DNA of 33,319 nucleotides, from contig JABJKS010000117.1 of NCBI GenBank assembly GCA_018660265.1, positions 1 to 33,319 of the forward strand, given 5' to 3'. The stretch is from Rhodospirillaceae bacterium. Lineage in GTDB: Bacteria; Pseudomonadota; Alphaproteobacteria; GCA-2731375. Positions 1,440-4,449 of the stretch are shown in pieces. Position numbers and translations under genes: made by a program. The stretch's first letter is position 1; each line of letters opens with the position of its first letter. The notes under the pieces are model-generated. The model saw only the letters and a list, made by a program, of their open reading frames with translations. It did not search any database and had not been told where the DNA came from.

Positions 1440-1898
1440 TCAGGCGTAGGAAATGGAGATCGTTTCGGCGACCATGACGGGGCGGTCGCTGCCTTCCATC
1501 TCCATGGCCACATCGGCGATGATGCGTATGCCATCACCTTTGACATCTTCCGCAGCCTTCAACGTGGACCGCATGCGAACCCGGCTGCCAGCGGGCACCA
1601 TGCCCGTGAACCGGACTTTGTTGGAGCCATAGTTGACGCCACGACTTGTCTTTTTGATCTCCATAAGCTGTGCCGACAGGCGCGGCAGCAATGACAGTGT
1701 CAAATAGCCATGGGCAATGGTGGTGCCGATGGGCAGCTCGCGCTTGGCCCGCTCTACATCAACATGGATCCATTGATGATCGCCGGTGGCCTCGGCGAAT
1801 TTATCGATCATCTCCTGATCAATGGTGACCCATTCACTGACGCCCATTTCCTGACCCACGTGCTGCTTCAGGTCTTTTGGTGTTTCAACGGTAAGCAT
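1440..1898 (-). CDS. MaoC-family (R)-enoyl-CoA hydratase-like protein
   Basis: A single hot-dog-fold protein of 152 residues, the usual length for PhaJ/NodN-like MaoC proteins. The hydratase-2 signature is visible: FAEATGDHQWIHVD, carrying the catalytic Asp and His, followed by GTTIAHGYLTLSLL. Such enzymes add water to trans-2-enoyl-CoA to give (R)-3-hydroxyacyl-CoA, linking beta-oxidation to polyester or other (R)-hydroxyacyl products. The chain length used cannot be read from the sequence. The start is supported by GAGGAAA seven bases before the ATG. It is transcribed toward ychF and lies 49 bp downstream of the radical SAM gene on the same strand, so the two could share a transcript. A second, longer MaoC protein is at 27144-27998. 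Confidence 0.88.
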   Translation of the reverse strand: MLTVETPKDLKQHVGQEMGVSEWVTIDQEMIDKFAEATGDHQWIHVDVERAKRELPIGTTIAHGYLTLSLLPRLSAQLMEIKKTSRGVNYGSNKVRFTGMVPAGSRVRMRSTLKAAEDVKGDGIRIIADVAMEMEGSDRPVMVAETISISYA

Positions 1899-3054: not shown

Positions 3055-3091
3055 GATTTTTGGACTCTACGACTCCGCAAAAATAAATCAA

Positions 3092-3106
3092 GAACAAATC
3101 AAGAAC
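3092..3106 (-). promoter_or_regulatory. Candidate alphaproteobacterial LexA (SOS) box
   Basis: GAAC, seven bases, GAAC lie exactly here; read on the minus strand this is GTTC-N7-GTTC, the direct-repeat operator described for alphaproteobacterial LexA. It sits inside a perfect 11-bp tandem repeat, AAATCAAGAAC twice (3085-3106). It is 38 bases before the radical SAM start and 36 before the divergent glycosyltransferase start, in the only intergenic space of this region. The match is direct; regulation is inferred. Confidence 0.6.
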
Positions 3107-3142
3107 ATTATTTGACGGACAAAAATAGGTTATGATGATGTC

Positions 3143-3823
3143 ATGATTTCAATTGTCATCCCCACCCTGAACGCCGCCGCCACACTGCCCGCAACTATTA
3201 CCGCCCTGCAGGCGGGGCGGGATAGCGGCCTGGTCGGCGAAATATTGGTAATCGATGGCGGTTCCACTGACCGAACGATGGCAGTTGCAGAAGCCGTGGG
3301 GGCAAAAGTGCTGCACAGCGCACCGGGACGCGGCGGGCAATTGCAGCGCGGCGCAGTGGCAGCCAAAGGCGAGTGGTTCCTGTTCCTGCATGGCGACACA
3401 ATTTTGGCCAAAGACTGGCTGTTCGCCGTAGAAAATTTCATTTCGGATGAAGGCAACCGCAACCGCGCCGCAGCCTTTCGCTTTGCCCTGGATGACCCTG
3501 ATCCCAAGGCCCGCCGTCTGGAAAAGATCGTCGCCTGGCGCTGCACCACCTTTGGTCTGCCCTATGGCGACCAGGGCCTGTTGATATCCCGGCCATTTTA
3601 CGGCCGGGTCGGGGGCTATCGGGATCTGCCGTTGATGGAGGATGTTGATCTGGTGCGTCGCATAGGACGGCGTCGGCTAGCTATATTGGCGGTTGCGGCA
3701 ACGACGTCCGCCAAGCGCTATCGACAGGGGGGCTATGGCCTGCGCCCGGCCCGCAATCTGCTGTGTTTAAGCCTGTATTTCCTTCGCGTACCGCCTAAAT
3801 ATCTGGTCAAACTGTACAAATGA
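3143..3823 (+). CDS. TIGR04283-type family 2 glycosyltransferase
   Basis: The 226-residue protein begins ISIVIPTLNAA and has VIDGGSTDRT and LHGDT, the nucleotide-sugar and metal-binding parts of a GT-A fold family 2 glycosyltransferase. RPFYGRVGGYRDLPLMEDVDL matches the short TIGR04283 group. That group is named for arsenosugar biosynthesis but is widespread where no arsenic genes exist, so sugar and acceptor are unknown here. No membrane anchor is evident. The ATG at 3143 is the only in-frame start near the motif; two upstream ATGs (3132, 3135) are out of frame and no strong ribosome site precedes it. Its stop overlaps the next gene's ATG as ATGA, a sign of coupled translation. Confidence 0.88.
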   Translation: MISIVIPTLNAAATLPATITALQAGRDSGLVGEILVIDGGSTDRTMAVAEAVGAKVLHSAPGRGGQLQRGAVAAKGEWFLFLHGDTILAKDWLFAVENFISDEGNRNRAAAFRFALDDPDPKARRLEKIVAWRCTTFGLPYGDQGLLISRPFYGRVGGYRDLPLMEDVDLVRRIGRRRLAILAVAATTSAKRYRQGGYGLRPARNLLCLSLYFLRVPPKYLVKLYK

Positions 3824-4449
3824 AACCTATGGCAAACGAAAAGGGCACACTGATCCTGTTCGTCAAAGCGCCGCGCCTGGGCGCGGTGAAGACCCGCCTG
3901 GGCAAGACCATTGGCCCCTTGGCCGCCTGGCGTTTCTATAACAGGATGCTATCAAGGCTATGGCGACGCCTTGGCGATGATCCCCGCTGGCGCACCGTGG
4001 CCGCCGTCAGCCCCGACAAGGATTTCGCCCGCTGGCCACAAAATCTGCTGCGACAGCCCCAGGGCCGGGGCGATCTGGGCCGGCGCATGGCCCGCGCCAT
4101 GCAGTGCCATGACGGACCTGTGGTGCTGGTCGGCGGCGATATTCCCGATCTGGGCCCGGCGCATGTGGCCCAAGCCATGCAAGCCCTCAAATGCGCCGAC
4201 GCCGTATTCGGGCCGGCGGCGGACGGCGGCTTTTGGCTGGTCGGCTTGCGCCGTGGCCAATGGGCCGGTCGGCTGTTCAAAAATGCCCGCTGGTCCAGCG
4301 CCCATGCCCTGGCCGATTGCGTGTCCAACTTGCCAGGCACGGCGCGGGTCGTCATGTTGGAGACCCTGTCGGATGTAGATACAGCGGCGGATTTTGAGGC
4401 TTATCGAGACCGCCCACCTAAGAAAGATTACGAGAGAGACCATGAGTGA
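3820..4449 (+). CDS. TIGR04282-type (DUF2064) glycosyltransferase / nucleotidyltransferase-like protein
   Basis: The 209-residue protein shows VKAPRLGAVKTRLG near the N-terminus, VGGDIPDLGPAHV in the middle and FGPAADGGFWLVG after it. These are the hallmarks of the TIGR04282/DUF2064 family, whose fold resembles CofC- and GlmU-type nucleotidyltransferases. Members usually sit beside a TIGR04283 glycosyltransferase, as here, so the two probably act on one pathway. The function is not established for genomes lacking arsenic methylation genes. A second possible ATG is at 3829. The gene overlaps the previous one by 4 bp and the next by 8 bp, forming a compact three-gene operon. Confidence 0.85.
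   Translation: MKPMANEKGTLILFVKAPRLGAVKTRLGKTIGPLAAWRFYNRMLSRLWRRLGDDPRWRTVAAVSPDKDFARWPQNLLRQPQGRGDLGRRMARAMQCHDGPVVLVGGDIPDLGPAHVAQAMQALKCADAVFGPAADGGFWLVGLRRGQWAGRLFKNARWSSAHALADCVSNLPGTARVVMLETLSDVDTAADFEAYRDRPPKKDYERDHE

Follow-up and report, generated by a model that had tools for sequence, protein, structure and literature searches.

An 88-bp divergent gap (3055-3142) lies upstream of a PA0069-family radical SAM gene in the window (the whole stretch of 33,319 nucleotides that was analysed), and it raises the question of whether the direct repeat held in it is a LexA operator of that gene, and what such control would say about the enzyme. A sequence-only reading had described an exact GAAC-N7-GAAC inside a perfect 11-bp tandem repeat in this space, and all of these elements are present in the sequence (Table 1). 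Read on the minus strand, the repeat (3106-3092) is the sole exact GTTC-N7-GTTC match within the window, and its end lies 37 bp from the ATG of the radical SAM gene (3054). GTTC-N7-GTTC is given as the LexA motif of Alphaproteobacteria and of Caulobacter in PMC3323433 and PMC9578287.

Table 1. Features of the operator region and the neighbouring genes
Feature	Position	Strand	Basis
LexA-type operator GTTCTTGATTTGTTC (GTTC-N7-GTTC direct repeat)	3092..3106	-	exact match; core kept upstream in relatives
Perfect 11-bp tandem repeat, 2 x GTTCTTGATTT	3085..3106	-	sequence; right-hand 7 bp absent from same-genus L072
TTGATT in operator spacer; predicted -35 box of relatives	3097..3102	-	TAnnnT 16-18 bp downstream in 41/77 genes
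Second TTGATT, predicted -35 box here, abutting operator	3086..3091	-	16 bp from TAGAGT, as in L072; by eye
TAGAGT, predicted -10 box, 9 bp before ATG	3064..3069	-	by eye against L072
PA0069-family radical SAM protein, 368 aa, CxxxCxxC at C85/C89/C92	1948..3054	-	NF033668, PF04055
TIGR04283-family glycosyltransferase, divergent neighbour	3143..3823	+	profile match
TIGR04282/DUF2064 protein, overlaps end of TIGR04283 gene	3820..4449	+	profile matches
MaoC-like protein, 49 bp downstream of radical SAM gene, same strand	1440..1898	-	profile match

Conservation of the GTTC-N7-GTTC repeat

The core alone was not significant in the window, where 0.74 matches are expected and at least one occurred in 55 of 100 shuffles, and genome-wide we counted 125 matches as against 142 for the backwards control. 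Since the core was enriched neither in the window nor in the genome, we dropped the bare motif match as evidence, and since it stood at chance level we tested its conservation across relatives. The NF033668 family was found over its cut-off in 171 of 398 sampled Pseudomonadota and in 92 of the 190 Alphaproteobacteria that we sampled; for 91 of the 92, window included, we searched at most 470 bp upstream of the gene. The exact core was present upstream of 79 of the 91 genes, which come from related genomes so that the counts are not from independent samples, and 77 of the 79 copies run in the gene's orientation. Among controls, 200 dinucleotide shuffles of the same 91 stretches averaged 1.08 stretches with the core and never exceeded 4, the backwards pattern occurred in 2 of 91, and 68,250 bp of gene body contained one match. 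It is this conservation, not the bare core, that makes the operator significant. The search of upstream regions, where an SOS box had been proposed earlier for the window, showed that GTTC-N7-GTTC is kept in close relatives, including one of the same genus (L072) and one of the same family (L042).

The exact core was missing in 12 of the 91 genes. For seven of them the top-scoring candidate departs from the core at one position and is oriented like the gene (judged by eye, mismatched copies having no control). Also by eye, the one-mismatch copies in L017, L069 and L090 are all weaker or reversed, the site in L056 departs at two positions, and in L080 no copy was seen. Thirty further alphaproteobacterial loci, a biased set as these were top-scoring in a search of the phylum, had the core in 30 of 30 and the backwards control in 4 of 30. 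The core was likewise found in 11 of the 11 loci named as Alphaproteobacteria among 80 named loci, at least two of which repeat contigs from other sets (L235 is L006, and L212 is L147). Five of the 20 listed plasmid-record loci were examined, and four had the exact core; it was not found upstream of the gene on the plasmid record of Methylobacterium bullatum (L284).

Two side observations concern the state and setting of the gene. On pSymB of Sinorhizobium meliloti (L280) the family gene stands beside a glycosyltransferase, with GTTCTTGCTTTGTTC upstream, and this locus is well suited to laboratory work. In two genomes the family gene is in pieces (G065:C3:15439-16481, with internal stop codons, and G045:C351:7946-8999), through sequencing error or decay.

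The genome itself has one lexA match (177.6 bits; cut-off 110.95), and GTTC-N7-GTTC is present upstream of this lexA, where the core starts 113 bp before the start, of recA, and of an ORF preceding an imuB-like gene (imuA and imuB being named from gene order and a match to PF00817 only); the core was not found in the upstream region of dinB. Across the class, the core occurred within 260 bp in 22 of 30 lexA loci, with 0 for the control. Taken with the conservation above, the same core at the lexA, recA and imuB-linked promoters backs the earlier proposal of a LexA-type operator, and the site at 3092-3106 is very probably a LexA operator that represses the radical SAM gene. By these comparisons the operator is real, strongly conserved and ordinary in kind. 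Counted by genome, the family gene was over cut-off in 91 of the 160 that have a lexA match vs 1 of the 30 that lack one (paired by eye, ten of the 30 lexA-less genomes being deduced from gaps in the match list); we do not use this co-presence as proof, because it is confounded by genome reduction.

The two kinds of operator differ in sequence, 20 of 24 lexA operators beginning GTTCTA and radical SAM operators having mostly TTG(A/T/C)TTT as spacer. Their polarity is also opposite: 23 of 24 lexA sites run one way, a direction shared by only 2 of 79 radical SAM sites, and the recA and imuB-linked sites of this genome run in the lexA direction.

Operator types in other classes and earlier reports

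In 40 non-alphaproteobacterial Pseudomonadota loci, CTGT-N8-ACAG was present upstream in 26, with 0 for both the mirror control and the alphaproteobacterial core. The 80 named loci are those that scored best with a Pseudomonas-side query, and 69 of them are named as other than Alphaproteobacteria: 48 of these have CTGT-N8-ACAG (one together with the alphaproteobacterial core), two have the alphaproteobacterial core only (L220, L233) and 19 have neither, with control patterns in 0 of 80 (mirror) and 2 of 80 (backwards). CTGT-N8-ACAG was thus not found in 14 of the 40 loci nor in 21 of the 69. In 57 of 74 loci that carry it, the operator end lies 14-25 bp from the first in-frame start codon. The canonical operator is carried by most Halomonas/Marinobacterium-type loci and by 29 of 30 named Pseudomonas/Stutzerimonas loci, a set that does not include P. 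aeruginosa itself, as anticipated by the sequence-only reading, which had named a different operator for the Pseudomonas homologue. We take PA0069 to be under LexA control in P. aeruginosa, whose regulon was reportedly described by Cirz in 2006. The alphaproteobacterial core in one class and CTGT-N8-ACAG in others stand before the same family gene, suggesting that the operator changed and control stayed.

Searching the 80 named loci for other operators gave no match to the Xanthomonas type and one to the Gram-positive type GAAC-N4-GTTC (L236). Upstream of the family genes of Dyella, Luteibacter, Rhodanobacter and Frateuria (L210, L215, L219, L225, L237) neither operator type was found; these gammaproteobacterial genes may use a different LexA motif or may have lost the control. 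L220, named Mycobacterium sp. KBS0706, has a PA0069-family gene with an alphaproteobacterial-type operator, and a wrong name or a foreign contig looks likely there.

That control was kept while the operator changed, as the sequence-only reading had it, is borne out by the operator types per class, and has already been argued in print for alpha- as against betaproteobacteria (PMC3323433). The idea of SOS control is right but not new, having been in print since 2012, when LexA control of splB was predicted in alpha- and betaproteobacteria and was argued, from the different motifs, to be functional (PMC3323433). That splB resembles the present case in class, in operator type and in being an SPL-like gene, the family being likened by description. 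The same paper names the gene a predicted photolyase, contains no promoter geometry that we could find, and reports that the trait is not seen in Gammaproteobacteria, whereas here Pseudomonas loci carry the canonical operator. SplB-like radical SAM genes under LexA are also reported from other phyla with other operators, again likened by description: COG1533 SplB is SOS-regulated in several species according to a paper on the Bacteroidetes SOS network (PMC8565304), and a radical SAM gene is in the Gram-positive SOS core and in Balneolaeota SOS regulons according to PMC7739468. Two further papers link SplB-like proteins to SOS operons (PMC3765255) and list a radical SAM gene of Streptomyces venezuelae in a table of LexA ChIP-seq and mitomycin results (PMC9380542).

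Functional work on the family was looked for in literature found under PA0069, Rv2578c or LexA, and no functional test of the PA0069 family was found there. The papers examined that name PA0069 or Rv2578c contain a microarray list entry (PA0069, in a table that passes no comment on it; PMC6546240), the name of a chromosome-tag strain, and the attachment site of a phage, Streptomyces phage Samy reportedly integrating into a sister Rv2578c-family gene annotated as putative SplB (PMC12924846); the LexA-centred papers examined give predictions and one induction table. It is a fair inference from the operators that SOS control points to a DNA-damage role for the enzyme, and since LexA control through two operator types is difficult to account for if induction by damage brings no benefit, the family deserves a repair assay.

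Relation of the enzyme to spore photoproduct lyase

The radical SAM protein of the window scored 512 bits against NF033668 (cut-off 360) over positions 1-348 of 348, and C85, C89 and C92 are invariant in an alignment of 25 family sequences (A1). The nearest other family by profile is Rv2578c (NF038135; 207 bits, under its cut-off of 430), which is under LexA control in mycobacteria. Comparison of the predicted model (mean pLDDT 79) with solved structures gave spore photoproduct lyase (SPL; PDB 4FHC series) as the closest fold (4FHF: Z 16.4, rmsd 3.8, 252 aligned residues, 12% identity), followed by NifB (Z 13.9). The CxxxCxxC motif is common to SPL and the family, and the Tyr before its last Cys is kept as well. 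Since the SPL model picks up 17 of the 25 family members with E values no higher than 1 (the lowest being 5e-6), kinship of the family with SPL is likely.

It is nevertheless unlikely that the enzyme is a genuine SPL, as the 'photoreactivation' reading of PMC3323433 would have it. Although SPL is the best fold match, with a Z score above that of the next family, identity to it is low and the window protein reaches 10 bits (E 0.29) against the cut-off of 400 for the SPL model TIGR04070. In the 25 aligned family proteins invariance is confined to the three cluster cysteines, and no fourth invariant Cys was found. The SPL of Bacillus, by comparison, conserves one more Cys (C141 in B. subtilis) and has Y99 as its relay Tyr (PMC3742179). 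The catalytic Cys140/141 of SPL therefore has no invariant counterpart in the PA0069 family: the position aligned by eye to SPL C140-T-S-D is T, S, A, I, V, G or M in 235 of 241 proteins, and the remaining six, which fall outside the pattern, have no Cys there by eye. At the residue after CxxxCxxC, which matches Y99, 148 of the 241 proteins have F and 93 have Y. An alternative register leads close to a position where 111 of 235 proteins have Cys, which is not invariant either, and the A1-A2 profile-profile match behind this register is weak (37% probability), so the argument from the catalytic Cys rests mainly on the lack of a fourth invariant Cys. A profile search of solved structures with A1 returned no SPL chain up to E 10, and weak matches to the SPL family TIGR03886 in the class came to 5 of 181, with 0 over cut-off. 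Spore photoproduct forms in dry spores, and these bacteria are not known to form such spores.

The missing invariant fourth, catalytic Cys thus argues against the 'photolyase' label, which is poorly supported, and as the usual label of the enzyme looks doubtful, the locus is useful as a lead. On this evidence the enzyme has an SPL-like fold and probably another substrate.

Predicted promoter layout and the shared gap

In many relatives the operator spacer itself resembles a promoter element. We observed TAnnnT 16-18 bp after the spacer TTGxTT in 41 of 77 genes, with 0-5 in nine shifted windows and a mean of 1.90 (maximum 7) in shuffles; TAnnnT was not found at the expected place in 36 of the 77. 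A second, smaller TAnnnT peak, 6 bp farther (11 of 105 sites in a wider set), might go with another -35-like hexamer, TTGTTC. In the 41 TAnnnT genes the first in-frame start lies 6-9 bp past the -10 in 38, and exactly 6 bp past it in 28. Measured from the operator's first base, an in-frame start occurs at 38-42 bp in 56 of 77 genes, compared with 1-8 of the genes in each of six further 5-bp bins, and at the same distance in 19 of 30 loci of the second alphaproteobacterial set. From these spacings the operator spacer appears to be the -35 box of a near-leaderless message in roughly half of the genes, if not more. A spacer doubling as -35 box would explain why the orientation and spacing of the operator are locked, and shared ancestry could add to both patterns. 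This layout is apparently new: neither the spacer/-35/leaderless arrangement nor the locked orientation was found described in the literature examined, whose scope took in few of the subscription papers.

The window departs from this layout by one repeat unit. Its final 7 bp of tandem repeat lie outside the conserved operator and have no counterpart in L072, and the window operator is 11 bp farther from the start codon than that of L072 (both by eye). TAGAGT, a -10 box shared with L072, is separated by 16 bp from the second TTGATT, and relative to L072 the operator is displaced 11 bp upstream. The tandem repeat is thus best understood as the operator having moved by one turn, so that the -35 box now adjoins it, a reading made by eye on two sequences. 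A promoter scan did not list the TAGAGT/TTGATT pair, which by count has 8 of 12 consensus bases where the scan threshold is 9.

From these sequences we infer LexA binding, induction, use of the promoter and action of the enzyme on damaged DNA, as follows. In undamaged cells LexA would sit on GTTC-N7-GTTC, whose 7-bp spacer would itself be the -35 box (TTGATT) in many relatives, whereas in the window the extra 11-bp unit would set the -35 box directly beside the operator; in either layout LexA would block RNA polymerase. Upon DNA damage RecA filaments would bring about self-cleavage of LexA, the promoter would open, and the enzyme would then be made from a near-leaderless message. The fused operator, -35 box and leaderless start would offer a simple model for promoter silencing by a direct-repeat LexA site.

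The gap is shared, and the operator could instead chiefly serve the divergent TIGR04283/TIGR04282 pair, or both sides equally. A TIGR04283 gene is the divergent neighbour in 44 of 120 alphaproteobacterial loci, and a weak sigma-70-like pair pointing toward the glycosyltransferase (3112-3139) beats any that the scan listed for the radical SAM gene. However, the operator is kept in 66 of 76 loci without the glycosyltransferase vs 42 of 44 with it (many loci have short flanks, so that neighbours may have escaped notice in some), it is the radical SAM gene with which the operator's orientation and start-codon distance go, and in Pseudomonas another operator type stands before that gene. We consider this alternative very unlikely, and the divergent glycosyltransferase is probably not the operator's main target. 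It is scarcely credible that the repeat arose by chance or is a non-LexA element kept merely as promoter sequence, because, although the genome count is at chance level and the spacer partly resembles a -35 box, a promoter alone leaves the two GTTC blocks 11 bp apart unexplained, and the same core recurs at lexA, recA and the imuB-linked ORF with CTGT-N8-ACAG in other classes.

We tentatively propose, with somewhat less than even confidence, that PA0069-family proteins form a radical SAM enzyme group of their own, SOS-induced in vegetative cells, which would repair or remove a DNA lesion other than spore photoproduct by chemistry that dispenses with the cysteine relay of SPL. In Alphaproteobacteria a compact composite promoter would drive the gene, its LexA direct repeat holding the -35 box of a leaderless message and being locked in polarity to the gene.

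The MaoC-like gene was also considered as the real target and set aside, tblastn giving no match to it in 279 loci; this is a weak argument, as many loci end at the radical SAM gene (L031-L090, L126-L165). It could be co-transcribed with the radical SAM gene. On the other side of the gap, the TIGR04283/TIGR04282 pair carries the label of arsenosugar biosynthesis glycosyltransferases.
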